Shown: piece by piece, positions 6,451-42,817 of the stretch
How the letters are laid out: each line of letters opens with the position of its first letter
Position numbering within the stretch: position 1 is the first letter of the stretch
Program-made: the position numbers and the translations under genes
IMG/VR virus record: IMGVR_UViG_3300005265_000679
Coordinates: 1 to 43,599 of that record
From: a virus
Length of the DNA stretch: 43,599 nucleotides
Reading direction: 5' to 3' (one strand)
Notes under the pieces: model-generated
What the model saw: only the letters and a program-made list of their open reading frames with translations
Told to the model about the DNA's origin: nothing
Databases searched by the model: none

Positions 6451-7016
6451 TGAGATCTCAACTGTGGACAAGACTCTATGACTACATTGAAGAATATCAA
6501 TATTTAGTTTATGAGTATTACGCTAAAGATGCAATTGCATATTTAGTAACTTATTATCATTTAAATAAAGATGAAACAGTTTGGGATGACACAGATTTGT
6601 TTGGTGGATATTATGAAAAGATTGGAGATTTAACTGGAGTAAAGTGGGATAAAATTTTATTGCTACCAATCTTTTTTATTGAAGAAGTTAATACTCAGTT
6701 TGATGCATCAGTAGAAAATGGTCAAATAAAAATGAATGAAACCTCTATTGTCATTCCTTCCGAGTATGGTTTTACCCCATATCCAAATGATTTAGTAAAA
6801 TTTGATCAACGTTATTTACAACAAACTCCAAATAACTTTCCATTATTTTCTGTTACTGGTGTTGAAATAGGACCAAATACAGATAGACGATTTTGGAAGT
6901 TAAAAATTGAGACAGAGCAAAGTCGAACTATGACCGAAGTTGATCAACAAGTAATTGATATTTATACCTTTTTTGATTATGAAATCAAATCATTGCATAT
7001 ATGGAAGATTATTTAG
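6450..7016 (+). CDS. Probable baseplate wedge protein (gp53-position)
   Basis: 188 residues between the gp25-like and gp6-like genes, overlapping both (TAATG start, 16-base overlap at the end), so translation is coupled. The N-terminal helix is Tyr-rich (RLYDYIEEYQYLVYEYY) and the C-terminal half contains a strand-rich segment (YPNDLVKFDQRY... FSVTGVEIG... FWKLKIE). Position between gp25 and gp6 suggests the gp53-type wedge component, but I see no decisive motif, so the name is by context. Confidence 0.5.
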   Translation: MRSQLWTRLYDYIEEYQYLVYEYYAKDAIAYLVTYYHLNKDETVWDDTDLFGGYYEKIGDLTGVKWDKILLLPIFFIEEVNTQFDASVENGQIKMNETSIVIPSEYGFTPYPNDLVKFDQRYLQQTPNNFPLFSVTGVEIGPNTDRRFWKLKIETEQSRTMTEVDQQVIDIYTFFDYEIKSLHIWKII

Positions 7017-27000: not shown

Positions 27001-27082
27001 TATTTTCATACTCCAATCTTCGAATAGTAAATAAGTTTAAATCATTATCATCTACAACTAAATAAGGATTACTTATTTTCAT
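24053..27082 (-). CDS. rpoB: DNA-directed RNA polymerase beta subunit (phage-encoded, unsplit)
   Basis: 1009 residues, shorter than bacterial beta (about 1,200-1,350) but a single chain. GPGGFKRK... DIHPSMYGRICPVDTP (343-372), NFEDGIVISDRL (549-560) with the acidic pair that helps bind NTP/metal, GDKIGNRHGNKGVI (729-742) with the active-site lysines, GVPSRMNIGQ (768-777), and GYMYMFKMTHM... RSIGPYSRKFLQPLAGKK (892-926) are recognisable in the bacterial order. The N-terminal region is reduced. It would pair with beta' from the gene upstream to form a phage transcription enzyme. Alpha and sigma are not seen. The stop is adjacent to the folE2 start. Confidence 0.95.
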   Translation of the reverse strand: MKISNPYLVVDDNDLNLFTIRRLEYENIMPTIRAIVQPALNEGYELKDFRMDKSRRRNNKLQISVTNRLVLKLAKGDKTFDLTSVIPKLIKDQYFVINGSQKIPLFQLYDIPVVTRSGMIKIKTNASSIGISFYRKPEEIGFRLGINFQGRKVPLAILLYAYFGKEKLDKLIHEEFKSSAFSHKWFDPLYLDVKELLEDKDASLEDVHKLLGYYYSSYDPIKRADDVKFALDILLQVDIMSQPYFKTTCMPLEILRIMTSDGVDDSDFINKRIRCFEYVIYRHYIKAIYDLITVNRNKTKFARFNVNSGQILKDVNLSDIVQFDFSINPIEELTKMSRTSVLGPGGFKRKEVPKHLRDIHPSMYGRICPVDTPDRDNCGVLQNLLPLTKLDPTLRFAKDYEEKYITSIPVSMVPFCEHNDQTRLQMASSQMRQAIHLVNFESPMIKSGCEHLYSEYTQFCQKAKKDGMITYLDDEWMIVKYDGEDDGDIYNIAPRQIYVENMDQYKVYFKLGDKFKKGDILFESDFMDKGSIQFGNNVLVGFMSYYGDNFEDGIVISDRLVKENILTSKHIVNLSFTIPIDKVLLTLSEKDYSPLPKKGEFIKAGQPYAKIKEVPVSPTDIPSIFEETNVLTHNEDMVISKVAIYANDWNRSIQRYSTWVNDVIEWQRNKNEVVKSAIKTIFPLEDAKSTIQDLNLDIFNGKDYKIQKDHINGIYVEMEAIVERPIKVGDKIGNRHGNKGVITKILPEKEMPQLEEGKHLDVCLGPLGVPSRMNIGQLYEIYLSKVLEYFKEKTIEDIEANVSNEIIKNNILHFIRLVDKTENNWYFQQFTEQLPDVITKEFIESLDIIQPPFDSISINDAQEIKRYTGVSSTSRVYDPKFRRYIDHEISIGYMYMFKMTHMADGKLAARSIGPYSRKFLQPLAGKKNKGGQRLGEMEQSSLIAYGAHDTLYECFTLKSDSIDAKNDFIQKVINTDRLSLEEIQISTPESIELMNKYCTVLGFEIKGEN

Positions 27083-27102: not shown

Positions 27103-29838
27103 TTATAGTTTTTCGCCAATTAATAGTTTATCCATTATTCCCATATACAAACCAGAATTGAAGATACCTTTCAACATGTGAAGTTTCGGTCTACCAAAAG
27201 CCATTCCTAACATCCAACTTTCTTGACTTGGAACAGATGTAACAGTTTTAAAGGTTGGAAAATATTTTTCCCTATCTTTAAGTAATCTCCACTTAGTATC
27301 ACCATGCCACATTAATTGAGCAACAACAGTTTCAAAGTGAATATGATATATTGTTCTGCTGGTATTATAAACATCAAATAGTTTACTGACCAATTCTTCT
27401 TCAGTAGTATTCCGATCCATACGATGAAATAAAGATGTTGCTGCACTCAAATCTGCAATAATATCTTGTTGGGCAAATGTTTGATCGTTTTCACTTTCAC
27501 TTTCCTTAATTTGAGCAACCCCAGAAGTATGAAATGTACGTAGAACTAATTGTGTATTTGCTTCACCTAATGCTTGAGCAGCTACAACTCCAATATATTC
27601 AGACTTCAAATTATTGCAAGTTTGACCATAACATGTTCTACAGACTTTTGGATTTTTGCAATAAATTGGACTTCTCACATATATTGTTTTTCCTACGAAT
27701 TTTTCACAATCATCATTTGAAAATACCCGCAATTTTTTATTTTTGAGATTTGATTTAAAATATTTTCCAATTAACATTTTTGCCTTTTTAATATCTTTTA
27801 CGATAACAGGCAGATAATCAGTTGTCCCACAATCTTCATCATCTCCTAATTGAATATTAACACATGAAAATATTAACTTTCGTGAAAGAAATCCTGAAAC
27901 ACCAGTGTTTAATGCAACATCCAACAATCCTTTTCTGCAACCATATGTTGAATTAAAAAATTCTCTAGAAGTTAGGCCATGAATTAAACTGTTTTTAATT
28001 GGTTCAGAAATAATTTCACCATCAAAATTTGAAATGAATCCACGTGAAAAGACCATTTGACGAACCTGATCCCAACTTCCACGAGCACCCGAATCAATAA
28101 TATCTGCATATGCAAAATTCTTTTGGAGATAATTTTTAACTTCTTCGCTATTAATCATTTCCAACTGTTTCTTCTTTGAATTTTTCTCACTGTAAATTTC
28201 ATCTTTAAGTTCCTCACTACCTTCAACAACACAATCAAATAATGACATTGTAATTCCATAATATGTAGCAAACTTAAAACCGATGAGTTTAATTCCATGA
28301 AGAGCAGCAGCAGTTATTTCATCTGAATATTTATCTCGAATATCAGATAAAATTTCGATCAATCGCTTTTTATCAATTGTTCCGGTAATAGGTGGATAAT
28401 CTTCTGGAAAACATGCATTAATCAAGGACATTCCTCCAGTCATTTCCACTCCCTTGACATTAATAGTAGAATTGCCCGGAGGACTGACTAACCCCTTTGA
28501 AAGAGCATATATTCCAAAAACAACATCCTGAGAAGGAATCATTGATAAAGAACCATTATTAGGACTAGTAAGGTTCTTAGTGGATAGAATTTTTTCAGAG
28601 ACTTCTTGTTTGGCTTCAATTGTTAATGGAACATAAACAGCCATTGTATCTCCATCAAAGTCAGCATTAAACCCTGAGCATACAAGAGGATTAATTTTGA
28701 TAACATTATCCTTATTAACTTTGACTTTGAATCCAACAATACCTAATCGATGTAATGTTGGCTGCCTGTTTAATATACAAACTTCATTCTTTGTTACTTT
28801 ACGACATAAATCGTATAAAATGAAATTGTTTGTTTTAATACATTCATCAACAAATTCTAAAGCCTTATTAAAGTTCTTGAAAATTCCGTGCTCAATTAAT
28901 TTCTTTGAAATTTGAAATCGAAATAATTCTAAAACCATTACATAAGGCAATGAGCATTCATCTAGTCTTAATTGATTTGATGGAACAATAACCGCCCGCC
29001 CCGAAAAATCAATTCGTTTTCCTAAAATATTAAGGCGAATTAATCCTTCTTTTCCAGACAGTTTTGAAATAATATGCTCATATAAATCGTTAACATGTTT
29101 TTGTAACTTTTTGAAATAATCGTAAAATATTGTTTTGTTATGGGTACTATCAATTTGCATTTTTGTTGATTCCATTAATAATTTATCAGCAAGAATATTT
29201 AAATAGAAATCATTAATTTTATCAACACGTCTATCTTTTTGAGAACTTTTAGAAGCAGGTCTTAAATCTGGAGGTAAAACTAATACATTATGAATAAACA
29301 TACAATCCATATTTTCTTTTAATAATTTTTCTCTTGGATTGTTCATATCACATCCAGATTTAATGCAATGTTTCATAACTTTTTCAATTGCATCTGTTCC
29401 TTCATAATATTCAACGTCCTTGGGTAAAGCATCCATAGATGTAACAACAATCCATTCATCAATTACATCATCATAATAAGCAGCACTATTTTCATTAACC
29501 ATTAATTCATTAACTACTTTTTGTGCATCTTTTGAAAATACAAATTTGAATAGATCTAAAAAGATAGGATTAACTAGGGGAATAGGTAAAACAATTTTAG
29601 CATATCTGTAACGACGTTGTGAACTATTAACAATATCAACCTTGCATTTATCACATTTTCCGCCTTCTCTTGATGGTCCATGATAAATGCCACATTCACA
29701 AGTATAATTTTTAACAGGTCCAAAAATGACTTCAGAAAATAAACCGTCGGGATGGAATTTTGCTTTCTTTAAGGTAGCTTGGGTTGTAATTTCAGGTAGG
29801 TCCTCACATAACTTATCAATATTAATTAGTTTAGGCAT
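27103..29838 (-). CDS. rpoC: DNA-directed RNA polymerase beta' subunit (phage-encoded, unsplit)
   Basis: The start is placed at the second ATG (29838), 10 bases after AAAGGAGA; the first ATG (29847) is too close to it. About 911 residues, shorter than bacterial beta' (about 1,150-1,400). N-terminal zinc ribbon (CEC... CDKC, about 47-65), RIDFSGRAVIVPS, NRQPTLHR, and the catalytic NADFDGD (about 391-397) with its three metal-binding aspartates. Then come the bridge-helix region GARGSWDQVRQM, the second zinc site (Cys in DDEDCGTTD, and CKNPKVCRTC), and the trigger-loop GEANTQLVLRTFHTSG. All key parts are present, so it should be catalytically competent. It overlaps the preceding small gene slightly. 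Confidence 0.95.
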   Translation of the reverse strand: MPKLINIDKLCEDLPEITTQATLKKAKFHPDGLFSEVIFGPVKNYTCECGIYHGPSREGGKCDKCKVDIVNSSQRRYRYAKIVLPIPLVNPIFLDLFKFVFSKDAQKVVNELMVNENSAAYYDDVIDEWIVVTSMDALPKDVEYYEGTDAIEKVMKHCIKSGCDMNNPREKLLKENMDCMFIHNVLVLPPDLRPASKSSQKDRRVDKINDFYLNILADKLLMESTKMQIDSTHNKTIFYDYFKKLQKHVNDLYEHIISKLSGKEGLIRLNILGKRIDFSGRAVIVPSNQLRLDECSLPYVMVLELFRFQISKKLIEHGIFKNFNKALEFVDECIKTNNFILYDLCRKVTKNEVCILNRQPTLHRLGIVGFKVKVNKDNVIKINPLVCSGFNADFDGDTMAVYVPLTIEAKQEVSEKILSTKNLTSPNNGSLSMIPSQDVVFGIYALSKGLVSPPGNSTINVKGVEMTGGMSLINACFPEDYPPITGTIDKKRLIEILSDIRDKYSDEITAAALHGIKLIGFKFATYYGITMSLFDCVVEGSEELKDEIYSEKNSKKKQLEMINSEEVKNYLQKNFAYADIIDSGARGSWDQVRQMVFSRGFISNFDGEIISEPIKNSLIHGLTSREFFNSTYGCRKGLLDVALNTGVSGFLSRKLIFSCVNIQLGDDEDCGTTDYLPVIVKDIKKAKMLIGKYFKSNLKNKKLRVFSNDDCEKFVGKTIYVRSPIYCKNPKVCRTCYGQTCNNLKSEYIGVVAAQALGEANTQLVLRTFHTSGVAQIKESESENDQTFAQQDIIADLSAATSLFHRMDRNTTEEELVSKLFDVYNTSRTIYHIHFETVVAQLMWHGDTKWRLLKDREKYFPTFKTVTSVPSQESWMLGMAFGRPKLHMLKGIFNSGLYMGIMDKLLIGEKL

Positions 29839-30064
29839 TCTCGTCATTCTCCTTTATTTCTTCTTCCAGGTATTTAGAAATTTCTTGAAAATGTTGAATA
29901 TTAGTTTCTGCTACTTTTTTGTTTATTATGTCATCCCATACCTCCATAATTTCATAGATTTGTTGTTTTTTAATTGTTTCAATTTGTTCGTTGAGTTGTT
30001 TTTCGACTTCTTCTTTAACTAAGGTTTTTATAATTTTTTTGATTCCCATCATAACATTTTTCAT
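29831..30064 (-). CDS. Small coiled-coil protein preceding RNA polymerase genes
   Basis: 77 residues, Lys/Glu-rich and strongly helical (VKEEVEKQLNEQIETIKKQQIYEIM), ending with an acidic tail. It is the first gene of the operon with beta' and beta and overlaps the beta' start, so synthesis is probably coupled. GAGGAG lies 6 bases before the ATG. No family is recognisable. An omega-like or polymerase-assembly role could be tested but is not supported by any motif. Confidence 0.5.
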   Translation of the reverse strand: MKNVMMGIKKIIKTLVKEEVEKQLNEQIETIKKQQIYEIMEVWDDIINKKVAETNIQHFQEISKYLEEEIKENDENA

Positions 30065-30160: not shown

Positions 30161-30214
30161 GATTTGAGGATCCCTTTCCTATTCATATTGACATAGGAAA
30201 GGGATCCTCAAATT
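30161..30214 (-). terminator. Very long perfect hairpin terminator
   Basis: A perfect 20-21 bp inverted repeat (TTTGAGGATCCCTTTCCTAT and its complement, each arm containing GGATCC) has a 10-base loop and directly abuts the stop of the 203-aa gene (stop at 30213-30215). A T-rich run (CTATTTATTTATTT) follows on the minus strand. It probably terminates that transcript and insulates the RNA polymerase operon. The perfect symmetry means it could also act on plus-strand RNA, or bind a protein. Confidence 0.75.
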
Positions 30215-30824
30215 AGTAGTGAAGGAGAGGAATGGGAGTTTTCCTCTTTCCAATAATCTTTTGGATAAAACTTTTCCTTGTGGCCATCAATGCTACATTA
30301 AGATCAAATTCTTGTGACGGAACAATATTGTACATGTTTTTATCACAATTTGTTTGAAGATCCATCCCTCTCCAAACTCTTAATGTCATAAATAAATGTG
30401 GAAACGCCTCATCCAAATCCATATCTCTGAGATGATCAATACAAATTTCCCACAAAGAAATTTTTTGATTCAGATCAGCCGCCCTATTTAATGGACATCC
30501 ATTCATATGATATGCATTGGTAATAACCTTACATATACGGTTATTTTTATTTAAAGTTATCCACACTTTAGTTGGAATAACTTTTTTATCCAATGCAATA
30601 AATGTGAATGTATCATTCGCTTTATGAACTCCTGTAAAATATCTAGGAATAATATATTCATTGATGACAATTTGTTTTTTCCCAGATGCTAATTTGAAAC
30701 ATTTATATCTAATATTTCTAGCATCTAAAAAAGGAATTTTAATCCTTTTTGGAAGTTTAATAAAATTGAAAAAAACATCAAATCCAAATTTCGCTTCATT
30801 TATAGTTTCCATGATAGCTTCCAT
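30213..30824 (-). CDS. Unknown protein (203 aa), own promoter and terminator
   Basis: 203 residues, basic, alpha/beta mixed (KFGFDVFFNFIKLPKRIKIPF, then KKQIVINEYIIPRYF). The central segment contains NAYHMNGCPLNRAADLNQKISLW, and the C-terminal tail is basic (KKIIGKRKTPIPLLHY after FIQ). No family recognised. A clean AGGAGG site is placed 7 bases from the ATG. It has its own copy of the AACTATATATATTAATT-type motif (30862-30885) and its own strong terminator, so it is a monocistronic unit next to the ubiquitin-like operon and may be co-regulated with it. Confidence 0.65.
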   Translation of the reverse strand: MEAIMETINEAKFGFDVFFNFIKLPKRIKIPFLDARNIRYKCFKLASGKKQIVINEYIIPRYFTGVHKANDTFTFIALDKKVIPTKVWITLNKNNRICKVITNAYHMNGCPLNRAADLNQKISLWEICIDHLRDMDLDEAFPHLFMTLRVWRGMDLQTNCDKNMYNIVPSQEFDLNVALMATRKSFIQKIIGKRKTPIPLLHY

Positions 30825-30899: not shown

Positions 30900-31760
30900 T
30901 TATGCCCCTCCAATTGCAGGTAAAATATGATATGAATTATACATTTTATCAGAAACTAAAAAGGAGGTATTATCAGATATTTTTTCTTCCATTATAAATC
31001 TATTTAACAACGTAGCAACTTCAGAAAAACTATGCTGATAATTTATTGGAATTGTGATGTGTTTTTCTTCCTCGGGAAGACACAATTTGAAAGATATATC
31101 TGACTTGTGCTCAGATTCAACTATTTTTCTTATAATGGAAGGTAATGTTGGAACATGTTCAAAAACCGGAAAATAATCACATATTAATTCCATATCACTA
31201 TTTTCTGTTTTCGAACAAATTTCATTCTTATTAAATTTTTCAAGATAATCCAAACCAATAAATTTTGATGAATGTGATTGAATAAATTGATAAATATAAT
31301 TTCCTTCTAATATAAATTGTGTAATGAATCTAGCACAATTGTCTATATCGTTTTTTCTTAAATTTTTTGGGTATTTTCCATAATTGATTTGATCTTCATT
31401 GCGATCTTTTCTAGCATCAAGAAATAAAAAATTTCCAGAAATACAACATTTTAAATCTACATCTTCGTTGTGAATTAAAGTTCGGTCAGCACAATTTATA
31501 ACTAAATCTTGTTTCGGAATCAGAGTATAACATTCTTCAAAGAAAGAATCAAATACTTTTATTTCAGTATTTGGAAATTTTTCTTTAATTGCAAGAATTT
31601 TTTTCTTTCCGACATCACTAGCACTAAAAAAACTAGTTTTAAGATTTTTTTTCTCCACAATATCTTTATCAATCAATTTAATAGGTACATTGTTTTGTAA
31701 TAAATAATAGGCTATGTGTGACCCTAGACTTCCACAACCGATAATAACAACATTGTCCAT
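30900..31760 (-). CDS. E1-like ThiF-type protein with C-terminal ubiquitin-like domain (second E1)
   Basis: The start is set at ATG 31760 because GGAGG ends 6 bases upstream (ATG 31766 is too close). 286 residues. The N-terminal Rossmann motif VVIIGCGSLGSH, then LIDKDIVEKKNLKTSFF and NCADRTLIHNEDV, matches ThiF/MoeB/E1 adenylating enzymes. The last ~67 residues (220-286) have a beta-grasp pattern (two strands, helix SFSEVATLLNRFIM, strands) ending YHILPAIGGA, close to the 'LPpvaGG' end of MoaD/ThiS-like proteins. Such a fused Ubl with GG-Ala would need removal of Ala before activation. It is separated from the preceding Ubl gene by a strong terminator. The Ubl-fusion call is inferred. Confidence 0.7.
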   Translation of the reverse strand: MDNVVIIGCGSLGSHIAYYLLQNNVPIKLIDKDIVEKKNLKTSFFSASDVGKKKILAIKEKFPNTEIKVFDSFFEECYTLIPKQDLVINCADRTLIHNEDVDLKCCISGNFLFLDARKDRNEDQINYGKYPKNLRKNDIDNCARFITQFILEGNYIYQFIQSHSSKFIGLDYLEKFNKNEICSKTENSDMELICDYFPVFEHVPTLPSIIRKIVESEHKSDISFKLCLPEEEKHITIPINYQHSFSEVATLLNRFIMEEKISDNTSFLVSDKMYNSYHILPAIGGA

Positions 31761-31773
31761 TGTCATCCTCCAT

Positions 31774-31830: not shown

Positions 31831-32205
31831 TTAACCCTTGGTACCAGCGGGCTTAATGAACTCGACATTATCACCAGGTTTGATAACATAGCTACCAGAA
31901 ACTTTCTTACCGCTAGCCAGAATGTTAGCGTTGTCAGGAATGTTAAAAGATTCTTTACAGGTTGCAGCCACTTCGGAAACAGTCATTCCAACACAAGCTA
32001 CGGGACCACGGTTAAGACCGCAAGTAATAATAGCCATACCACCATTATCAGGGCTGGGTGCAGAATCAACTGTACCAGTAGCTTCCTGAATCATGCCGAT
32101 CAGGGTGGCTTTATTTTTCTTTGAATAACCAGTCAGACCAAGATTCTGACAGATGTTACGAAGTTCAGCGTTAGTTTTTTCTTCCAAATTACCGTAAATG
32201 CTCAT
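31831..32205 (-). CDS. Ubiquitin-like modifier with N-terminal SAP/Rho-N-like domain
   Basis: 124 residues. Residues 1-44 (ending KKNKATLIGMIQEATG) look like a small SAP/Rho-N/HeH helical domain: 'LRNICQNLGLTGYSKKNK'. An acidic/Pro linker is followed by a beta-grasp domain (about 57-124: MAIITCGLNRG, helix TVSEVAATCKESF, GDNVEFIKPAGTKG). GDNVEF-type ends are typical of ThiS/MoaD/PRTRC-C ubiquitin-like proteins. It ends in Gly but with GTKG rather than GG. The gene is visibly richer in G+C and in CGT/GGT/AAC/CTG-type codons than its neighbours, suggesting high expression or recent transfer. It is followed by a strong terminator. Likely the conjugated or activated modifier of the cassette. Confidence 0.65.
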   Translation of the reverse strand: MSIYGNLEEKTNAELRNICQNLGLTGYSKKNKATLIGMIQEATGTVDSAPSPDNGGMAIITCGLNRGPVACVGMTVSEVAATCKESFNIPDNANILASGKKVSGSYVIKPGDNVEFIKPAGTKG

Positions 32206-32240
32206 AATATAAGTCCTCCAAAATAATAGTTTAAAATTTT

Positions 32241-32921
32241 CTATGCTTCAGGCACAGAACGTTTCGCTGCGGAAACTTGCAGCATTTCCATATCAAAATA
32301 TATTTCAGCAACACCTTCAATCTTTCCTTCCAGGTAAAGATAAAAAGCCCAACAAATAAGTGTTGCCGCCCCAAGATTTACGAAATAAAGCTGCGGTTCA
32401 GAAGCATGAAGTTCTTCACAACTCATCTCATCTGGGGATTTATCAGCAGGAACTTGAATTTCAGGATGGTAGTCCATTAAACTTGGGCTTATCTTTTCAC
32501 CGTCCTTTCTAATATAGATTTGGACATTACCATCAATGAAATCATTCCCACCGGAGAAGACTACACAATTGTTAAGAGTATCCACATGCTCAGAAATAAC
32601 TTTTCTGGTTTTGTGGTTATCTACGCCCAAAATTACAATCGAGTCTTCTGGTATAATTTTTGCCACATTCCTTTTAGTTACATATTCATCAACATAACTG
32701 AAAACTAAAGATGAAAATTTCTTTGATAAATCATTATATTTTACTTCTGCCTTTGAACCCATTGTTGAAAATTCTTGTCGTTCCATATTTTTGGGTTCAT
32801 ATTCATCACCATCAACTAAAGTGATATACCAAACGTTATCATTCTTATAATTTAGAAAACGACAAATTTTTTCAGCGGTGATTGATCCAATACCACCCAA
32901 CCCAATGAAAACAACTTTCAT
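32241..32921 (-). CDS. E1-like ThiF protein (PRTRC-ThiF-like), first E1
   Basis: The start is set at ATG 32921 (GAGAGG 7 bases upstream); a start at 32939 would overlap the JAMM gene further. 226 residues. GLGGIGS (7-13) binds nucleotide; VDGDEYEPKNMERQEF (37-52) and ILGVDNHKTR (98-106) are E1/MoeB/ThiF features. Near the C-terminus SCEELHASEPQLYFVNL (167-183) has Cys168 in the context seen in PRTRC-type ThiF proteins (Cys, then 'QdlfiN'). It would adenylate the C-terminus of a ubiquitin-like partner. It overlaps the JAMM gene and lies directly before the Ubl gene. Confidence 0.8.
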   Translation of the reverse strand: MKVVFIGLGGIGSITAEKICRFLNYKNDNVWYITLVDGDEYEPKNMERQEFSTMGSKAEVKYNDLSKKFSSLVFSYVDEYVTKRNVAKIIPEDSIVILGVDNHKTRKVISEHVDTLNNCVVFSGGNDFIDGNVQIYIRKDGEKISPSLMDYHPEIQVPADKSPDEMSCEELHASEPQLYFVNLGAATLICWAFYLYLEGKIEGVAEIYFDMEMLQVSAAKRSVPEA

Positions 32922-32922
32922 T

Positions 32923-34170
32923 CTAAACCTCTCTTTCATTCTTTAAGATTTCTTTTAAAATTCGTGGATCATCCCCAGTTACTTCGATGCTTGCATCATC
33001 TTTATCATAATCAATTAAATCAAACTCATCGTTAGAATCTAATCCATCAGATTCTGAATATGATGAATCTAAAACATCTGTGATTATGAATTCAATATCT
33101 TCAGCATGTTTACAATTATAACAAGGAGAAGTTTCAAACCCATATTCTTCCAAAAGACTTTGAAGAAGCGTTTTATCTTCCGTAACAATTTTTGCTTTTT
33201 CTTCATTCTTATCTTCAGTTTTGGATTTGTCATCCCAGCCCCACATATCCATCCACATTTCATCATAACCAAAACCTTGACGATTAACATAAGGATAAGG
33301 ATAATTTTTGTTTACAACTCGACCAGCGTGTGGAGATGTAATTGAAATATATGGTTTGCGAACATAAACTTTCTTTTTGACGTTTTCAATCCATTCATCA
33401 CATTTCCAATCTACAGGTAAAAGTTCATTTTCAAGCTGATAGTAATGTGAAGATTCATACTTGATTGTATGATAATTTTGCTTAAGTTTTTCAGTTATGT
33501 AAGTATCTTTGTTCTTTACAAAAGGTGAAAATGCCATTAACCGATTAAACAGGGTTTTTTGCTGTGCTACAATTTCTTTCTTATCAATTTGAAAATGTTT
33601 GATGCCCTCAATATATTTTGAAGGAGCTACTTTTTCTCTGTAACCATTAACAACTGCTTCAACAGATACTGAGAATTTATCTTTAGAATTAACATTGCCG
33701 ATTGTAATATGCAATCCATCAAAATCATTTTCATCATCAATATCCACACCTGAGTGAAAAGCACCCATTGAACCATGTGAATGAATAGTGCCAACAAGGT
33801 AATAACCATCCAAATTAATTGGCTCATAAGTCATTGATGCTCCAGCCACTTCTTGCTTAGGAGCAAAAACCTTTATTTCACTATCATCATTTTTCATAGC
33901 AATCAGTACCATGGCTTCAGACGAATATTTGTTATAAATTTCTCTGAAAAACTTAACAGTTTTTTCAAACTCAATTGCCGGAATTTTAGGTATGGTTATT
34001 TCCACAAATGGTTCAATATCTTTCAAAAAACTTATTTTATCTACCTTAGTTAAACTGTTAATCAATCCTAATTTTTTTCTAACGAAAATTCCATTTTTTC
34101 CAACGAGGTAAGAAATCCCATCCTCATCAGGTATGGGATTCTTACCGTCATTGACGATAACTTTAAACAT
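32923..34170 (-). CDS. JAB/JAMM metallopeptidase (PRTRC-A-like)
   Basis: 415 residues. The JAMM motif is complete: Glu85 (SSEAMVLIAM), His130 and His132 in GTIHSHG, Ser140 and Asp143 in HSGVDIDDE, i.e. HxHG...SxxD. The catalytic domain occupies roughly 1-185. A variable region follows with Trp/Tyr-rich segments, and a Cys pair (CYNCKH) and an acidic C-terminal tail end the protein. Such enzymes remove ubiquitin-like proteins from targets or trim Ubl precursors. It overlaps the upstream E2-like gene by 8 bases and the E1 gene downstream, so the three are translationally coupled. Confidence 0.85.
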   Translation of the reverse strand: MFKVIVNDGKNPIPDEDGISYLVGKNGIFVRKKLGLINSLTKVDKISFLKDIEPFVEITIPKIPAIEFEKTVKFFREIYNKYSSEAMVLIAMKNDDSEIKVFAPKQEVAGASMTYEPINLDGYYLVGTIHSHGSMGAFHSGVDIDDENDFDGLHITIGNVNSKDKFSVSVEAVVNGYREKVAPSKYIEGIKHFQIDKKEIVAQQKTLFNRLMAFSPFVKNKDTYITEKLKQNYHTIKYESSHYYQLENELLPVDWKCDEWIENVKKKVYVRKPYISITSPHAGRVVNKNYPYPYVNRQGFGYDEMWMDMWGWDDKSKTEDKNEEKAKIVTEDKTLLQSLLEEYGFETSPCYNCKHAEDIEFIITDVLDSSYSESDGLDSNDEFDLIDYDKDDASIEVTGDDPRILKEILKNEREV

Positions 34171-36619
34171 ATTTTTCTCCTCTTTTTAAGTTGGAATAAT
34201 AAATTGAGTCTTTATAATCAACAAAACTTTTTTCATATTTGTATAGAGAAGGATGGGGAATTCCATATTCAGCACCATTAACAATATTTATGCAAGTATA
34301 TAGACTAGATTCGGGATGATAAATACAAAAATCATTAGATGAATTAATGATCGCAGGTACTCTTAAATCTGAATCATCAACACTAACAATATCAAAATAA
34401 TTAGCCACATCACTAAAATATAGTGAAATACCATTTTCAAAAATCACTAATGGATCATTACCACAATCCGTCACTATAGCTTTAATAATATAACGATATT
34501 TTTTTGCTATATGTGGTCTTTTAAAAGGTAATGAATTACGTGTGACTGCATCCCCAACTTTTAATCCCCCATGTTCAGATACAGCTTTTCTAATGATAAA
34601 ACGATTGAATCCGAAATTATTATCAATTAAAGGTAAACTCACTTTTTGCTGATCTTCGGAAACTAAATTAACTATTAGAGACTGTTTATCCTCATCAGAA
34701 CTAAAAGAATCAATAGTATAAATAGTCCCATCTTCTAAAACATAGTTATAAAGTTTGGTAATAATAACTTTATCACCAATTTTATAGTATCTTTTAAAAT
34801 CATCAATTTCATGTTGATCAGCAATAATAATTCCGTTTTTAACTTGTTCATCAAAAGAAAAATATTCTAAATTGTCCGAAAACTTAGATAATTTAACAAT
34901 ATATTCTTTACCTTCTACATTGCAAATTAAAACATCTCCCCGTTTTGTTGATTTTCTAACTTTTGTTCGATTTGCTAAATATTTGATTGGAAGTCCTTCG
35001 TTAATTATTTTTTTTGTTAAAAACATTTTCATAGAGGAACGAAGCAAAAGATAATTATTTTCCGCACCCATAAGATTAAAAGTTATTGTGCAATCATTAC
35101 TTAAATTGATGTTTTTAAAATGAATTTGAGCTACGTACTCCATTTTCAATTTATCAATATCTGTACAGGTACAATTATAATCATTATTTGGGTAAGATGT
35201 TAACATTCCATTAGAATTAATATCAAATTTTAAAAGATGTGTTCTGGTCGTAACTGGAATGCCATTAATTTTAATTTTCGTTTGTTTGTTAATCTTATGA
35301 ATGTTTTTTCCAATACTTTGCAAATCAAACTGTTCACCATCAGTTGTTACTAAAATTAAATTTTCATAAATATCCCGAGTGAAATGGCTTATGGTTTTAA
35401 GAATAAAGTAAGGACTATTATTTGTTGGTTTAAAAACAATAACATCACCACTTTTCAAAACTAAATCAAAAACTTTCGTTTTCTTGATAAGACGTTTTTC
35501 CTTATCCATAATGGAAAGATAAATATCATTTATATTTTCCCGAATGGTTGATTCAGAAAATATGGTTGTGTGTTCTGGATTTTCAATAGAGGAACATATA
35601 ACATAACAGTTATTAGAATTAGCTTTATCTCTTGAAAAATTAATAACTTTGTAAGATTTATCATTCATATCAAATTCATCATTAATTTTTAATACACACT
35701 CACCATATTTTGACGAAAAACATCTTGAAGTTGTGTAACCTAGTATCTTATAAGTGTAAAATTCAGATACATTTTTAAAGATTTCTGATTTAGTAACAGT
35801 TTCACCATCAAAACAATTAAAAGTAGATCCCAATATTCTTTGATATATATCAGAATTTTCTTCACATTCATTATTCTGATATGTCTCAAATATTGATTGA
35901 AGATTTTGAGGACATGGTACAAATCCTAACATTGATGCCGCTAAAGGATTATCATGAGATATTTTTTCCCACATATAATAATTTTGTGGAGCTTCATCAA
36001 TATTACTATAAATAATATTATTAGTAATGTCAGAATTATAAACACTACCCCAAAAATTATTTATTAAATTGTTACAAGCATTATTATAATTTCCAGCCTC
36101 AGAAACGTAATAAGGAGGCATACAAATTGTTTGATCGCTATAAAAATTTGGAAGGGGTAACACAAATAACTGATCTTTTAGAGAAGATAAAGGAGCAGGT
36201 CTGCAAAAAGCTTTTAATGAAAATCCATGATTTGAAGGTGTCTCATGGAATGCAATCACGAACACCATATACGGAAAATATATACGAAAAATATTTTTTC
36301 GTTTAATAGGCATTCTCATTTTTGATTCCATTTCTTCTCTCATAGCATTATTTAAAGTTCTAAGAGTTCCATTAATTTTAATATTGTGCCATGCAGGTGG
36401 TTGTTCAATGACAAAAACTTTATACACAGAGTTTGTATAAAATCCCTTACAACCAGTTGGAAGGGATAAGTAAAAATTGAGAGAATTTGTTTTTCCTACC
36501 CATGTATTGACAATAGTTTCTATAAAGGAATTAGTAGGGATGGTAGTTCTAAGACTACCATCCGTATTAAAAATTGATGTTTTATATTTTTGAATGACAA
36601 TATTTGATAGTTCGGACAT
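34163..36619 (-). CDS. Very large E2-like/PRTRC-B-like protein (818 aa)
   Basis: 818 residues. The N-terminal ~230 residues have a UBC-like arrangement reminiscent of PRTRC-B/prokaryotic E2-like proteins: strand region (FRIYFPYMVFVIAFHE), then FVLPLPNFYSDQTICMPPYY with Cys166, a long helix and 'NNFWGSVYNSDIT'. The remaining ~500 residues are made of repeated small beta-barrel-like units with 'GD.V.' turns (e.g. KIGDKVIITKLYNY, LKVGDAVTRNS), probably SH3/KOW-like. Known bacterial PRTRC-B proteins are far shorter. E2 function and Cys166 as thioester acceptor are inferred. It overlaps the JAMM gene. Confidence 0.5.
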   Translation of the reverse strand: MSELSNIVIQKYKTSIFNTDGSLRTTIPTNSFIETIVNTWVGKTNSLNFYLSLPTGCKGFYTNSVYKVFVIEQPPAWHNIKINGTLRTLNNAMREEMESKMRMPIKRKNIFRIYFPYMVFVIAFHETPSNHGFSLKAFCRPAPLSSLKDQLFVLPLPNFYSDQTICMPPYYVSEAGNYNNACNNLINNFWGSVYNSDITNNIIYSNIDEAPQNYYMWEKISHDNPLAASMLGFVPCPQNLQSIFETYQNNECEENSDIYQRILGSTFNCFDGETVTKSEIFKNVSEFYTYKILGYTTSRCFSSKYGECVLKINDEFDMNDKSYKVINFSRDKANSNNCYVICSSIENPEHTTIFSESTIRENINDIYLSIMDKEKRLIKKTKVFDLVLKSGDVIVFKPTNNSPYFILKTISHFTRDIYENLILVTTDGEQFDLQSIGKNIHKINKQTKIKINGIPVTTRTHLLKFDINSNGMLTSYPNNDYNCTCTDIDKLKMEYVAQIHFKNINLSNDCTITFNLMGAENNYLLLRSSMKMFLTKKIINEGLPIKYLANRTKVRKSTKRGDVLICNVEGKEYIVKLSKFSDNLEYFSFDEQVKNGIIIADQHEIDDFKRYYKIGDKVIITKLYNYVLEDGTIYTIDSFSSDEDKQSLIVNLVSEDQQKVSLPLIDNNFGFNRFIIRKAVSEHGGLKVGDAVTRNSLPFKRPHIAKKYRYIIKAIVTDCGNDPLVIFENGISLYFSDVANYFDIVSVDDSDLRVPAIINSSNDFCIYHPESSLYTCINIVNGAEYGIPHPSLYKYEKSFVDYKDSIYYSNLKRGEKYV
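36538..36563 (-). other. 10-bp perfect hairpin inside the start of the 818-aa gene
   Basis: GGATGGTAGT and ACTACCATCC flank a 6-base loop at codons 19-28. No T-run follows in either direction, so it is not a terminator. It may influence early translation. It lies in coding sequence and could be chance. Confidence 0.4.
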
Positions 36620-36621
36620 CT

Positions 36622-38574
36622 TTAATTTACCTCTCTTTCTTTTGAAAAATGTCGGTTTATTAGAGATAAAGAAAATATTCGATTATCATCCATTAATACA
36701 TTGATAATATTTTTATCATGCATATTTTGAACAACTGCTTTGATTTTATATCGAACATTTTTTCTTATACCTCTAACAATATTTGATGATGTTTTTAATA
36801 AAACATCACCCGCTTTAAAATATTCATGATCAATAACTTTGTAAAGATTTGGAAAGAATATATCAAAATATCTCATAAAAGAAATGAGAGTCATTGATGA
36901 TTCTTCACCTTCTGCATTTTCGAGAATAACTTTTATGGATCGTATTGGTGATTCAGTATCTAATTCAAATAATGAAACTGTTCCAATTTTATTGCCCGGA
37001 ATTAAAAGTTGATCCCCTACTGATAAGTCATATCTTGTTTCACCAACCATGCAGCTGAAAGTTAATTTTCCATTTCTTTTCTTAATGAAATTGTCTGCTA
37101 GTTGTTTTTGTAAAGTAACATCACTTCTTACCTCTGAACCGGGATATATGTTAAAATCGGGATCATTAATAAAACTCACAACTTTTCCATTGCAGATAAA
37201 CGGTTCCTCAATATAATTAATATATTGTTTAGAAGAAGAAATAAAGAAATTTAAATCTTCAATGGGTTGAAGTTGTTTGTCTTCATCATCGATAAACATT
37301 AACCCAGGTTCTTGGAAAAATATCTCATCGTCTTTAATTATGAACCTGATTTCTGATCCATCTTTTAATGTGAAGTAAAACATAGAATCAGAAAAATCAA
37401 CTCTTTCGATTTGTGATTTTTTCCCAAAATAAAAACCCCTATACGAATAAACAAATGATATTGTATCTCCTTTCTTATATCTTAAGTTTTCCAAATTAAG
37501 AACTTTAATTTTTTCAGGATCAAACTTAAATCTAGTTCCATTTTGGGCTAATAAATAAATATCATCAGTTAAAATAGATCTAAAAACTTTATTAACCTGC
37601 ATTAACATAGAATATTTATCATTTTCCCCCCATTGATACTCAATAATATCATAAGATTTCAATATAGTTCCATCAGCAAGTGGACATTCAGATAATAATT
37701 TATTTTGATCTTTGAGATAATTTAAACATATTTCATTAGCATAATCTTCCAAATATGTTTCTTTTAAAGAAATAATTTGTTCATCATTAGATAATGCAAC
37801 CATTGGGATAGCATTACCAGATTCATAATTGACGAAAAAATCATCAATTTGATAATCTTTATCCCCTAATTTAATTTTGTCGCCAATATTAAAATCCATT
37901 CTATAATTTAACTCAGAAGATTGTAGTGTAATATTGGGTTTCCAATTAGTTGCATAAGCTTTTTGATAACCAAAAATTTCTTTAATCGAACGTGTTTCAT
38001 GACTTTTGCCATTTGACCAACGTAACAAAATATCATAAAAATCAGTTATTTTAGGTGAGTTAGGATTATCTTCAAATATAGACTGATTAAAATAAATTTG
38101 TGCAATGTGATTAACATTTTCATATTCCAATGGATTTAAAATTGAAATGGGTTTAGTTTTAGATATTTCTTCCCAAACAAAATAATTAGAAAATATAGTG
38201 TTTGAAAATAAATTAAATGCATCTGTAAACTCATCATTAAAAGATGCACTCCAAAACTTCAAAATCAAACCATTGATTATTTCATTAATAGTAGAATTGT
38301 CATAATCAATTTCACTTATGTTTCCGAGACAAACACTAGATACTTTTCCATCATCAAAAAGTTGAATATTCATCATTGGTAAATGATATAAACTTTCTGC
38401 AATCGATTTGATGGGTTTATAATGCATATACACTTCCATTCTTTGCAAATAGTTATCCCGAAACAAAAGGTTATAATAAACATATGGAAAATAAAGATAA
38501 AAATCATAATTTCCGTCATTATCCAATTCTTTATTAATATAGTCTGGATTTTTAACTTTATAAATTGCTTCCAT
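36622..38574 (-). CDS. Large E2-like/PRTRC-B-like protein (650 aa)
   Basis: Start at ATG 38574 with AAGG 10 bases upstream; GTG 38604, whose bases overlap the previous stop (GTGA), is the alternative. About 650 residues. HLPMMNIQLFDDGKVSSVCL (residues 64-83) with Cys82 matches the 'lP.pNv..dG.vClG' core of PRTRC-B/E2-like proteins, then 'INGLILKFWSASFNDEFTDAFN' and a conserved 'YFVWEEISKTKPIS' that is also found in the 818-aa protein (MWEKISHDNPLA). The rest contains repeated beta modules with GD turns (IGDKIKLGDKDYQI, KKGDTISFVY, YFKAGDVLLK). It is a paralogue of the next gene. E2 role inferred. Confidence 0.5.
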   Translation of the reverse strand: MEAIYKVKNPDYINKELDNDGNYDFYLYFPYVYYNLLFRDNYLQRMEVYMHYKPIKSIAESLYHLPMMNIQLFDDGKVSSVCLGNISEIDYDNSTINEIINGLILKFWSASFNDEFTDAFNLFSNTIFSNYFVWEEISKTKPISILNPLEYENVNHIAQIYFNQSIFEDNPNSPKITDFYDILLRWSNGKSHETRSIKEIFGYQKAYATNWKPNITLQSSELNYRMDFNIGDKIKLGDKDYQIDDFFVNYESGNAIPMVALSNDEQIISLKETYLEDYANEICLNYLKDQNKLLSECPLADGTILKSYDIIEYQWGENDKYSMLMQVNKVFRSILTDDIYLLAQNGTRFKFDPEKIKVLNLENLRYKKGDTISFVYSYRGFYFGKKSQIERVDFSDSMFYFTLKDGSEIRFIIKDDEIFFQEPGLMFIDDEDKQLQPIEDLNFFISSSKQYINYIEEPFICNGKVVSFINDPDFNIYPGSEVRSDVTLQKQLADNFIKKRNGKLTFSCMVGETRYDLSVGDQLLIPGNKIGTVSLFELDTESPIRSIKVILENAEGEESSMTLISFMRYFDIFFPNLYKVIDHEYFKAGDVLLKTSSNIVRGIRKNVRYKIKAVVQNMHDKNIINVLMDDNRIFSLSLINRHFSKEREVN

Positions 38575-38600
38575 ATTTTTAAAACCTTGACTATTTGCTT

Positions 38601-38801
38601 TCACTTTGATACTATGAAATCTTGGTTCATCCGAACATCAGTAGAAATAGTCATTCCATTACTGGTTAAAAAATCAAGTAATATTTTAGAAAATATTTTT
38701 ATGTTTCTGGGTTCATTAAACTCTTCAAATTTTTTAGTTTCGGGATCTAGGCCTAACTTTGATATCCCTTTGTTGTCAATAAAAAAACCAGTTTTTTCCA
38801 T
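38601..38801 (-). CDS. Small leader protein of the ubiquitin-like operon (66 aa)
   Basis: 66 residues, no membrane segment. The ORF begins MEKTGFFIDNKGISKLGLDP, continues with a Lys/Glu-rich helix (ETKKFEEFNEPRNIK) and ends FIVSK. AAGGAGG lies upstream. It is the first gene after the shared promoter-like motif at 38850-38873, and its stop overlaps the possible GTG of the next gene. Function unknown. Confidence 0.55.
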   Translation of the reverse strand: MEKTGFFIDNKGISKLGLDPETKKFEEFNEPRNIKIFSKILLDFLTSNGMTISTDVRMNQDFIVSK

Positions 38802-38960: not shown

Positions 38961-39269
38961 TTATTTTCTTTTAATGCTATACCTCACGTTTTCTGCATCT
39001 TCAAGCCATTCTACTCTATCAAATTTAATAGATCTCCACCCTTTTTTCTCTAAATCATACACATGTATTACGGAACTGTTATTAATTAATTTAAGAATTT
39101 TAGGTAAATCGATCTTTTTGGGTTGATCTGATTTAGGTATTTTATCGAAATTTAAAGTACATTTCATTATTCTTTCAGTGCCATCGGCTTTAGTAAACTT
39201 AAGTTTGACAAAATCCTCACTACGAATTTTTTCTAAAAAGTCTATTGCCTTATCAATAACATTAGCCAT
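38961..39269 (-). CDS. Small DUF2693-like phage protein
   Basis: 102 residues. The pattern 'VKLKFTKADGTERIMKCTLNF', then IHVYDLEKKGWRSIKFDRVEW, fits small phage proteins of the DUF2693/WYL-like SH3-type fold, with the 'f.KkdGt.R.m.ctl... VyDl.kkgWRs' signature as I remember it. These are common small T4-like phage proteins of unknown function. It follows the radical SAM gene and ends before the terminator. Confidence 0.55.
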   Translation of the reverse strand: MANVIDKAIDFLEKIRSEDFVKLKFTKADGTERIMKCTLNFDKIPKSDQPKKIDLPKILKLINNSSVIHVYDLEKKGWRSIKFDRVEWLEDAENVRYSIKRK

Positions 39270-39272: not shown

Positions 39273-40313
39273 TTAACTCCTTTTGTTAAGATGTAATAAA
39301 TTAGATACTTTTGTTTCATCTAAAATTGTTCTTTTCGACATTAATTGACATGTCCAATTACAACCTTTACAAGCGAAAATTTTATCTACTCTTAAAGCAT
39401 CTTTTACTTTTTTGAAATTAAAAACTCCACTTGGTGTAATAAAATTTAAAATATTCTTAGTTGAATTTGAAGGTGCAATACCTCGTATTCTTAAACATAA
39501 TCTTATAGATCCATCAGCATCAATTGTCAAATTATGAAACGAATCTTCTAGTCTACAATCCATCTTGGCAGGTAAAATATTAATTATATCTTCTAATAAA
39601 GGTTTTGACATATGAATATCATAACCCTTATCAATTAAACCAAATAGACATTTTTTTAATTCCTCAGATGGTTGGACTAAAAGACTTTCATCATTCACAT
39701 TTGAAAAATCATAATATTGATTTTTTGCAACATCAATGAAAGTAATACTACTAGTGATATTATTTTCATCTAATATTTTTACTAAAGGTTCTATATACTC
39801 TAAATTATTATTATCAATCGTAATTTCTGCAACCAAATCTTTGACTTTTTTATTTTTATTTAATTCAATTAACCTTTCTAACCCTTCTTTGCTTTTTCGA
39901 ATTCTATCTGTATTAACTTTATCTTTTTGAAAAATAATTGGATCAACAGATGAAGTTAACCCATCAACATAATCTACTTCTTCAAATAATTTCTTTAATG
40001 CTGGTTGTACTTCTTCAGAATTATTAGTAATAATTGTGTAATAAATATTCTTAGAATTGCAAAAATTTATTATATCAGGTAGATCTACTCTTAACAGTGG
40101 TTCACCACCATAAAAAATATGAAACATATAAGGATTATGTTTTTGTAACCTTTCTAAAATTTCTAAGATAAAAACGGTTGTCATTTCATTTTCTTCAAAA
40201 TATTTCATATCTGGGTAATGTTTGAATTTTTGATTTCTTACAATACCACAATACGAACATTTTAAATTACATCTTCTGGTTAATAACCAGTTAACAATAG
40301 CAATTTTGTCCAT
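39273..40313 (-). CDS. Radical SAM enzyme with C-terminal Cys cluster (SPASM-like)
   Basis: The start is set at ATG 40313 (AAAGGA 7 bases upstream); 40340 is an alternative inside the previous gene. About 346 residues. CNLKCSYC (15-22) is the CxxxCxxC cluster-binding motif, and YGGEPLL follows as usual for radical SAM (GGEP). The C-terminal part has Cys near DCRLEDSF, ADGSIRLCLRIRG, and CKGCNWTCQL, a cysteine-rich region like SPASM/twitch domains that hold extra Fe-S clusters. Such enzymes modify peptides (RiPPs) or other substrates. The partner is not evident; the small upstream gene is a candidate. Confidence 0.85.
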   Translation of the reverse strand: MDKIAIVNWLLTRRCNLKCSYCGIVRNQKFKHYPDMKYFEENEMTTVFILEILERLQKHNPYMFHIFYGGEPLLRVDLPDIINFCNSKNIYYTIITNNSEEVQPALKKLFEEVDYVDGLTSSVDPIIFQKDKVNTDRIRKSKEGLERLIELNKNKKVKDLVAEITIDNNNLEYIEPLVKILDENNITSSITFIDVAKNQYYDFSNVNDESLLVQPSEELKKCLFGLIDKGYDIHMSKPLLEDIINILPAKMDCRLEDSFHNLTIDADGSIRLCLRIRGIAPSNSTKNILNFITPSGVFNFKKVKDALRVDKIFACKGCNWTCQLMSKRTILDETKVSNLLHLNKRS

Positions 40314-40314
40314 A

Positions 40315-40671
40315 TTAATTCCTTTCTTTACCGACCTCAAAAATCAAATGATCATTTTCTTTTGTTATATAACCATTTATTTTCAAAGGAAAATTATTTT
40401 CTGCAATAAATCGTTCCATTCTTTCTATTAAATTAGAATGACATAAAATTTCTTGTAACTCATTATATTGGTCTCTATCTAAATGGCTTAGGGTTGAAAA
40501 CAGTTCTGGTACAATTTCAGACCCGCTTGCAGTAGCACTAAATACCATATCTTTTTTTCTTGAAGCAAAAGAAAGGGTAATAGACCCACGATACTCTATT
40601 TTGATATGAGTAATTTCTTTAACTTGATATATCAAATCAAAATTAAAATCAATATGTTTAAGAGTTTTCAT
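40315..40671 (-). CDS. Unknown small protein (119 aa)
   Basis: The start is set at ATG 40671 (AAGGA eight or nine bases upstream); GTG 40689 gives six more residues. About 119 residues with several strands (IKIEYRGSITLSFASRKKDM) and no membrane segment. No family recognised. Its stop overlaps the region just before the radical SAM start, so they are probably co-translated. Confidence 0.55.
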   Translation of the reverse strand: MKTLKHIDFNFDLIYQVKEITHIKIEYRGSITLSFASRKKDMVFSATASGSEIVPELFSTLSHLDRDQYNELQEILCHSNLIERMERFIAENNFPLKINGYITKENDHLIFEVGKERN

Positions 40672-40692: not shown

Positions 40693-41472
40693 TTAAAGTT
40701 TTAAAATCTCATCAGCTTCAATTTGATCAATGTGTCGATGACTAATAATAATAATATTTTTATCTTTGATTAGTTGACGTAAAACATTACAAACATTTTG
40801 AATATTATCGTCATCCAGAGCATCAAAGATTTCATCAAACAACATAATATTGATTGAAACTCCATGTAAATAATCCTGCAAATCAGCTAAAGTTAAAATT
40901 GTTGCAACATCAACGATCTTTGTTTGACCGCCAGATAATAACTCTCTCCCATCAGCATGTGTTTCGTTATCATAAAATCGAATATTAAATTTATCCCGAA
41001 ACTCTCCTGATTTTGTTTCTTGTAATGTATCAAACGAAACCATATATCGACCATTAGAAATTACATCTAAATATTCATTAACACGTTTATTCATAAACGG
41101 AATTGCTTCATCGATTAACATGCTAGGAATACCAGACGATGAAAAACCAACTTTCCAAAATTCATAAACTCTTTTTTGATTTTCTAAAACCTTGATATTT
41201 TCTTTTGTATCTTTTATCTTTTCCCGACAAGATTTTATTTTCTCAGAGTTTTCTGTTATCATTGATGAGTCAAATTCATTCTTTTCAATTTCTGAAATAA
41301 TACTTTCTATTTTATTGATATTATTTTCTTTTTCTGTTTTTGAATTAAGCAACTCATCTAGTTCTTTTTTCAAAACATTTAGTTTTTCGTATGACCGTTT
41401 CTCTTTCTCAAGATCAACTTCAAGACTTTCCTTCTGATATCTCTTTAGAAATATTTTCTTTTTTCTCTCCAA
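40693..41472 (-). CDS. sbcC: SbcC/gp46-like ATPase, C-terminal half
   Basis: 259 residues as read from TTG 41472. It starts within the end of the upstream half in the +1 frame. A coiled-coil arm is followed by the ABC signature LLSGGQTKIVD (178-188), Walker B NIMLFDE (208-214) and D-loop ALDDD. It supplies the second half of the SMC-type ATPase whose Walker A is in the other ORF, and with the SbcD-type nuclease processes DNA ends (T4 gp46/gp47 role). The split would be explained by +1 frameshifting at TCT TGA or a one-base error in A6. It may also be a genuine two-chain arrangement. Confidence 0.85.
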   Translation of the reverse strand: MERKKKIFLKRYQKESLEVDLEKEKRSYEKLNVLKKELDELLNSKTEKENNINKIESIISEIEKNEFDSSMITENSEKIKSCREKIKDTKENIKVLENQKRVYEFWKVGFSSSGIPSMLIDEAIPFMNKRVNEYLDVISNGRYMVSFDTLQETKSGEFRDKFNIRFYDNETHADGRELLSGGQTKIVDVATILTLADLQDYLHGVSINIMLFDEIFDALDDDNIQNVCNVLRQLIKDKNIIIISHRHIDQIEADEILKL

Positions 41473-42817
41473 TGATATTCTCTAACTCTTTAATATCATT
41501 AGATTTTTTAACTTCTATGTTTTCTATATCTTTATTTAAAGATTGAATTTGTGTAGTTAATTCTGAAATTTTTTCTATGAGATTTTTAATTTCAGACTCA
41601 ATAGGAGGAATTTTATTTTTATATTCTTCAAGTTTTTCAACAAGTTTTCCATTATGTTCTTTACCCATTGGTCGTAAACAAACCGGACATACTGCTCCTT
41701 CTGAAACATTTAAAAGTTTATTATATTTATCAATTTCATCTTCAATTAGTTTTTTATAAGTTTCTAGCTCTGCTCTTTTAATATCACATTGAGAAATTTC
41801 CTGCTCAATTAATCTAATAGAAGATCTCCGCTTTTTAATTTTCGCAGATGCTCCTTCGCTAATATCATATTTCTTAGAATTGATATTTCCAACTTCTGTT
41901 TGAATAATAATAGAATACTGGCTTTTTATAGCTTTAATCCCATTTTCTTTTTTCTCACTAATCAAATTAAAGAAAGACGTAGCTTTTTCTTTTAAGATAT
42001 TAATCTGTTCAGAAATACTATTAATTAATTTATCTTTCTCTTTTAAATTATGTTCTATGAACTCACCGTTATAATCTTTAATTTTACTTTCCAATGTTGA
42101 AATTTCATCACGAAGAATTTGAATAAATGTTCTATGTTTTTTGATATCATGATCCTTCTTTTCATAAAACTCAATTTTATCTTTTTCAAGTTGTTCAATT
42201 TGTTTTTCAAATTCTTTTATCAACTGGTCTAAAGTATCTAACGAATGAGTTTCATTCTGAATAGTTTCATCACATAATTTAATTTTTTCAGATGCGATTT
42301 TTTGATATTCAGTATATATTTCCAAGTCCAATATTTTCCTGAATATATTTTTCTGCTCTGCATCAGTTAAATCTGTGAAGAATGTTGTCACTTTTTGACC
42401 AAACAATACAGTATTGAAAAATAACTGTCGTGGCATAATCAATCTTTCTATTTCTTCCACAACTTCATTATTCCCATTTTTATATTGTTTTCCATTCTTT
42501 GTTAAAATGACAGCACTACTACCCATTTTAGTATATTTTAGATATCTATCACAAGTATAAATATCATCATTGATCTTAAAAGTAACATGAGTTCTACAGT
42601 TTCTTTTTGCTTTTCGGTTAATGGCTTTTTCGCCCCTTAACCCAGTTTGTGTCATGCCATATAATGTAAAAGGAATGATTGAAAACAATGTAGATTTTCC
42701 AACTCCATTCTTTCCAACGATCATTGTGATTTTTCCTTCTTTAAAATCCAAACCAACTAGATCTGTATATCCACAATAGTTTTCACATTCGACATGTAAA
42801 AATTCTATTTTTTTCAT
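41420..42817 (-). CDS. sbcC: SbcC/gp46-like ATPase, N-terminal half (split gene)
   Basis: 465 residues with Walker A GKNGVGKST (35-43), Q-loop LFGQK (139-142 area), long coiled coil and the zinc-hook CPVC (377-380) at the arm apex. It ends in a coiled coil at TGA (41420-41422). The C-terminal half is the next ORF, overlapping by 53 bases and needing a +1 shift. An SD-like GAAGGA lies just upstream of the TCT TGA, similar in layout to the release-factor-2 frameshift. It starts one base from the SbcD stop (ATGA-type overlap). Confidence 0.9.
   Translation of the reverse strand: MKKIEFLHVECENYCGYTDLVGLDFKEGKITMIVGKNGVGKSTLFSIIPFTLYGMTQTGLRGEKAINRKAKRNCRTHVTFKINDDIYTCDRYLKYTKMGSSAVILTKNGKQYKNGNNEVVEEIERLIMPRQLFFNTVLFGQKVTTFFTDLTDAEQKNIFRKILDLEIYTEYQKIASEKIKLCDETIQNETHSLDTLDQLIKEFEKQIEQLEKDKIEFYEKKDHDIKKHRTFIQILRDEISTLESKIKDYNGEFIEHNLKEKDKLINSISEQINILKEKATSFFNLISEKKENGIKAIKSQYSIIIQTEVGNINSKKYDISEGASAKIKKRRSSIRLIEQEISQCDIKRAELETYKKLIEDEIDKYNKLLNVSEGAVCPVCLRPMGKEHNGKLVEKLEEYKNKIPPIESEIKNLIEKISELTTQIQSLNKDIENIEVKKSNDIKELENIIGEKKENISKEISEGKS

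Follow-up and report, generated by a model that had tools for sequence, protein, structure and literature searches.

The DNA analyzed here, a 43.6-kb IMG/VR record of an uncultured virus (hereafter the window), carries a set of genes that we interpret, with a probability of roughly 0.7, as a dedicated operon for conjugation of a ubiquitin-like protein (Ubl) that belongs to a lineage of jumbo phages and would relay the Ubl onto proteins of the transcription complex. This interpretation builds on gene content, homology, catalytic residues, synteny and a compact, confident structural model of a relative of one of the encoded proteins, p203. Most of what is known about bacterial Ubl conjugation comes from systems encoded by the cell, which often act against phages. 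In the present case, the genes are inherited as a module within a widespread lineage of jumbo phages and adjoin those of the phage RNA polymerase (RNAP); the lineage combines a bacterial-type E2 with a compact HPN-type E2. If the interpretation holds, bacterial viruses run their own ubiquitin-like signaling.

The window is a fragment of a tailed-phage genome, given its PHROG matches to a large terminase, baseplate proteins, a tail-tube/virion structural protein and two RNA-polymerase subunits. The genes of interest are transcribed in the order radical SAM, WYL_2, p66, Big2, Big1, JAMM, E1a, Ubl, followed by E1b, p203, a 77-aa ORF, and then rpoC and rpoB in the same direction (Table 1). The spacing is operon-like: Big1 overlaps JAMM, JAMM overlaps E1a, and Big2 and Big1 are 2 bases apart. 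The preliminary description of this DNA had proposed a minus-strand operon, and all of its ORFs were found where it had placed them; it overlooked p203, the HPN-type E2-like protein, and the synteny with rpoC/rpoB. FolE2 and the radical SAM protein are frequent neighbors of the cassette, and 7-deazaguanine DNA modification is possible. The SbcC gene, which is split in the window, encodes a single protein of ~730 aa in the relatives, so that the split reflects a frameshift or an assembly error.

Table 1. Features of the cassette region of the window and the related operon of NC10 bacteria.
Feature	Position	Strand	Remarks
rpoB	24053-27082	-	PHROG RNA polymerase beta family
rpoC	27103-29847	-	PHROG RNA polymerase beta family
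p203	30213-30824	-	compact UBC/E2-like protein; HMN + EIC-IDHL
E1b (second ThiF-like protein)	30900-31766	-	ThiF match; ~100-residue C-terminal domain
Ubl	31831-32205	-	N-terminal Rho_N/HeH-like domain, C-terminal beta-grasp; end KPAGTKG
E1a (ThiF-type activating enzyme)	32241-32939	-	ThiF and PRTRC_ThiF matches; Cys174
JAMM/JAB metallopeptidase	32923-34170	-	PRTRC_A match; C-terminal extension with CxxC pair
Big1	34163-36619	-	Prok-E2_D/PRTRC-B domain with Cys166, then array of Tudor/KOW/SH3-like barrels
Big2	36622-38604	-	divergent Big1 paralog; VCLG cysteine kept
p66	38601-38801	-	small ORF overlapping the Big2 start
WYL_2	38961-39269	-	
Radical SAM protein	39273-40340	-	weak QueE-like PHROG match
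FolE2	23192-24052		GCHY-1 5.2e-58
SbcC	40693-42817		two overlapping ORFs (465 + 259 aa)
NC10 L071 operon	6657-10938		AAA ATPase, B (264 aa), JAMM (222 aa), E1 (227 aa), Ubl; beside dnaK

The peptidase, the activating enzyme and the modifier of the preliminary description were all borne out. The JAMM protein matches NCBIfam PRTRC_A (2.6e-8) and Prok-JAB (7.4e-5), and its metal site (Glu + HxHx7SxxD) is complete, with Glu85, His130, His132, Ser140 and Asp143 kept in 44 of 44 relatives. A C-terminal PCxxC motif (residues 349-353 of the JAMM protein encoded in the window), found in 37 of 41 sequences, is perhaps half of a zinc site. E1a matches ThiF (8.2e-15) and, across residues 6-209, PRTRC_ThiF (2.9e-11); its translation probably starts at Met7, and GxGGxG, R54, K63, D107, R112 and Cys174 are invariant in 42 sequences. 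The conserved catalytic residues fit predicted working forms of both E1a and JAMM. The Ubl of the window matches Pfam Rho_N (3.7e-5) and, weakly, ThiS (0.055; 0.003 in the per-contig search). Exactly one ThiS match was obtained in 21 of 41 related contigs (best 1.2e-5), and in the window, as in the relatives compared, this single match coincides with the Ubl. The C-terminal K-G is kept in 42/42 Ubl sequences. Many, including the Ubl of the window, end in this glycine, and others continue with C, R, YK, LL, DRKGC or ~70 residues. The Ubl and E1a are under purifying selection (NG86 omega 0.05-0.23 and 0.08-0.15, respectively), with lower values than Big and y, the gene that follows E1b. Four related loci (L023:6045-6482, L025, L026, L040) contain, directly upstream of Big, a second HeH-type Ubl-like ORF without the beta-grasp tail.

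The two large proteins, Big1 and Big2, had been described as E2-like, and the family-level searches support this assignment. PF14460 (Prok-E2_D) has one match in the whole window, at 35957-36274 inside Big1 (7.2e-4, per-contig search), and none in 14 control genomes; it matches 29 of the 38 Big family members (best 1.2e-6, mostly below the cut-off), and TIGR03737 (PRTRC_B) matches 10 of the 38 (best 4.8e-4). Big1 alone gave no match in the Pfam library scan, and single-sequence searches with it recovered no relatives. Big2 is a paralog, matching at 2.9e-34 a Big family profile built without it; it lacks the N-terminal ~110 residues and contains its own Cys (VCLG). This second Big sets the window apart from its relatives. 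The small ORF p66 was considered as the missing N-terminus of Big2 and rejected, as it shows no homology to Big; nor does it have recognizable homology to p120, a gene that lies upstream of Big in L015 (5587-5964) and 27 relatives and was not found in the window. The p120 proteins share conserved Cys24, E31, N46, E67 and R68, and most end in [RK]GE. The AF2 model of Big1 is poor (pLDDT 67, pTM 0.38), too low in quality for a direct test of the E2 fold, and no E2 is among its first 50 Foldseek matches. For the C-terminal half of this low-confidence model, Foldseek retrieved barrels like the SPT5 KOW and SETDB1/UHRF1 Tudor domains.

Downstream of the Ubl, E1b, already described as a second E1, matches ThiF (1.4e-13 in the window), and its family matches MoeB in a search of the PDB (8.2e-14). 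E1b retains GxGxxG, D33 and K56 and has neither a conserved transfer Cys nor the Arg-Gln pair of the MoeB/E1a site, so that its activity is doubtful. In some respects, its C-terminal domain resembles a Ubl: the conserved GGA/GAA tail and the strand pattern fit, but neither profiles nor PDB searches support this identity and comparison with the Ubl profile yielded no link; we retain it as a hypothesis. In L002, an in-frame stop separates E1b from the p203 relative.

The gene located directly after E1b in the relatives, designated y, is represented in the window by p203, which is preceded by a strong RBS. The His and Cys of the HPN...C active-site signature of E2 enzymes are invariant in the y family and the Asn is present in 40 of 41 members; p203 itself has HMN instead of HPN and an insertion before EIC-IDHL. 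A search of the PDB with the y profile, to E = 10, returned three sequences only, all ubiquitin E2s aligned on the HPN...C motif (E 0.065-0.76). UQ_con is matched by two y members (best 0.0059) and, in a whole-contig search, in 0 of 41 contigs; named phages yielded no y match. The AlphaFold model of the p203 relative from L015 has a pLDDT of 96.6. In Foldseek comparisons of this model, the three top-ranking PDB entries are E2-25K structures (E 0.18-0.31), and the first BFVD match is an E2 of Bodo saltans virus; the top E2 matches in the two databases (E 0.15-0.18, TMq 0.39-0.44) are individually weak. Taken together, these results make it very probable that p203 is a compact E2-like protein.

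One profile scan of viral contigs identified 53 loci. The gene order was examined in 52 loci, the window and L068 included; some are near-copies, so that they represent fewer than 52 independent phages. The order E2B(Big)-JAMM-E1a-Ubl-E1b-E2(y), followed by rpoC-rpoB, is colinear in 47 of the 52 loci, more than expected by chance; three further loci are truncated where their contigs end, and L048 and L051, which are divergent, lack E1b and y. Given this shared gene order, the cassette is an inherited phage module, and the earlier proposal of a phage-borne unit made up of genes for a modifier, an E1, E2-like proteins and a peptidase is supported. The rpoC/rpoB order is kept in 50/52 loci. Because L048 and L051 contain Big-JAMM-E1-Ubl and no detectable multisubunit RNAP, the core of the cassette cannot depend on such a polymerase. 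E1b and y were encountered in no lineage other than that of the RNAP-bearing phages, but shared ancestry confounds this correlation. L068 is binned as a Thermoplasmatales archaeon, but is a phage contig of this lineage and probably mis-binned.

We propose that E1a adenylates the C-terminal Gly of the Ubl and accepts the Ubl as a thioester on Cys174, after which the Ubl would be handed to the E2-like cysteine of Big1/Big2 and/or p203, with the barrel array of Big docking the substrate. Given that some Ubls of the relatives extend past the conserved KG, JAMM would trim precursors bearing residues beyond the terminal Gly, and might also strip the tag off substrates. The likeliest substrates would be transcription-complex proteins, namely RNAP, whether of the phage or of the host, and its partners, as suggested by the Tudor/KOW-like barrels of Big, the Rho_N/HeH domain of the Ubl and the continuation of the operon into rpoC/rpoB. 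Thus, on the basis of genomic neighbors and fold resemblance, we favor reversible tagging of such proteins as the outcome. A degradation tag was considered and rejected, with ClpP found in only 2 of 20 contigs. In particle preparations of phage Arash, remote homologs of JAB and ThiF and a weak E2_D homolog were detected, and the beta subunit of the phage RNAP was the most-detected protein (PMC10585845); by analogy, these data may be taken as supporting a transcription target.

The same Arash data bear on another scenario, in which the phage packages the components and these tag or process proteins of the virion during maturation or packaging, as proposed for the lambda-type TAPI/TAPK proteins (PMC1779556). 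The Arash preparation, however, contained 116 proteins (PMC10585845), so that contamination is possible, and in the window the cassette adjoins the RNAP/SbcCD genes and is distant from the tail genes, which are located at 0.6-10 kb; we consider this scenario improbable. A role in sulfur transfer appears more improbable still. Under such a scheme, the Ubl, E1 and JAMM would generate a thiocarboxylate used in making a modified nucleotide or a cofactor, in the manner of ThiS/CysO, with the E2-like proteins as accessories; ThiS/MoaD-type E1s and JAMMs indeed also serve sulfur transfer (PMC1779556), and FolE2 and radical SAM genes are located nearby. This reading is weakened by the lack of a rhodanese or cysteine desulfurase in all 20 contigs searched, although the host could supply these, and the Ubl ends in KG rather than GG; two E2-type families possess an invariant Cys.

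Counter-defense, raised in the preliminary description, has slightly better prospects than virion maturation, though it too is unlikely. The phage could tag or de-tag host immune proteins, or flood or mimic the Ubl-based defense of the host (CBASS Cap2/Cap3, Bil), and host Ubl systems do act against phages (reviewed in PMC11354881, PMC10286901). The E2-like genes evolve fastest, as substrate-facing parts in an arms race might; the NG86 omega of Big, 0.15-0.53, is above those of the Ubl and E1a, and that of y is 0.16-1.3, but the latter values are unreliable at 31-33% identity, where alignment error may inflate them. Furthermore, the cassette is ancient, colinear and near-universal in the lineage, unlike patchy anti-defense genes, and PADLOC detects in the window only generic E1-E2 and BilD (0.0012) similarity; BilA/B/C and CD-NTase gave no match. 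An elaboration of the transcription reading, to which we assign similarly low odds, is a two-branch cascade consisting of a PRTRC-like E1a-Big branch and an E1b-p203 branch, in which E1b would provide its own C-terminal, GG-A-tailed Ubl and both branches together would modify the phage RNAP or its partners and thereby time gene expression.

The phage cassette can be compared with several known systems. In the E1 tree (rough bootstrap), the phage sequences form a single clade (97/89) that is the sister group to six sequences from NC10 bacteria (99/99), in support of long vertical inheritance of E1a in the phages, and the joint branch lies outside the ThiF proteins of plasmid PRTRC. The closest non-phage E1 (44-49% identity to E1a of the window) belongs to a chromosomal operon of NC10 (Methylomirabilota), L071, with the same B-JAMM-E1-Ubl order as in the phages; L073 and L074 harbor similar operons. 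The NC10 operon differs in its location on a bacterial chromosome, the extra AAA ATPase (PF00004, 3.5e-25), a compact B without the barrel array, and the absence of E1b and a second E2. We found no published description of it in the open-licence literature, and it is apparently an undescribed chromosomal Ubl system. Judging from the sequences, it is the nearest kin of the phage cassette, and plasmid PRTRC is more distant.

The PRTRC plasmids, with the arrangement ParB-E-C-F-B-A-ThiF, correspond in our reading to operon type 6d of Iyer et al. 2006 (PMC1779556). They share with the phages E2_D (B), JAB (A), ThiF and a small Ubl that, by eye, ends in ...A(A/V)GTKG or similar, but have C upstream as well as ParB, E and F, counterparts of which were not seen among the neighbors of the phage cassette. 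The preliminary description had linked the cassette to PRTRC. Relatedness stands, given PF14460, the homology to PRTRC_A and ThiF, and the B-A-ThiF order, which is shared and old, being found in the phages, the NC10 locus and plasmid PRTRC; membership does not, with E1a at 43.2 bits against a cut-off of 144.75 (TIGR03736, PRTRC ThiF), JAMM at 33.7 bits against 101.8 (TIGR03735, PRTRC protein A) and the E1 grouping with NC10. In hhalign comparisons, Big aligned with plasmid PRTRC B (E 1.9e-4, probability 48%; the B set had one mis-assigned protein, from L063), the Ubl profile had no detectable match to PRTRC_C, and none of the cassette families matched PRTRC E or F.

The Bil/Bub and CBASS Cap2/Cap3 systems follow the same logic of a Ubl or tail, E1, E2 and JAMM, but are cell defense systems with other E2 and E1 families; unlike the phage cassette, BilA contains two Ubl domains and Cap2, in which E2 and E1 are fused, acts on a CD-NTase. 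Remote phage-borne counterparts are gp194-196 of Bacillus phage vB_BauM_KLEB27-3 (JAB, ThiF and Prok-E2_D, 0.00027), gp246-248 of Salmonella phage Arash (ThiF Gp246, JAB Gp247 and weak E2_D Gp248, 0.024), and the JAB and ThiF of Kolpuevirus, all annotated as hypothetical, structural or metabolic; no HPN-type E2 was found in these phages. In L053, L054 and Arash (OQ632216), rpoB and rpoC matches fall in frames of equal length (1586, 1525 aa), which suggests a fused beta-beta' RNA polymerase. In a survey covering 224 jumbo phages, there is no mention of ThiF, JAB or UBC (PMC7824862), and we found no experimental study of the PRTRC-like family in the open-licence literature. The phage cassette is a real variant of the known bacterial Ubl-conjugation systems and a testable entry into the function of this family.
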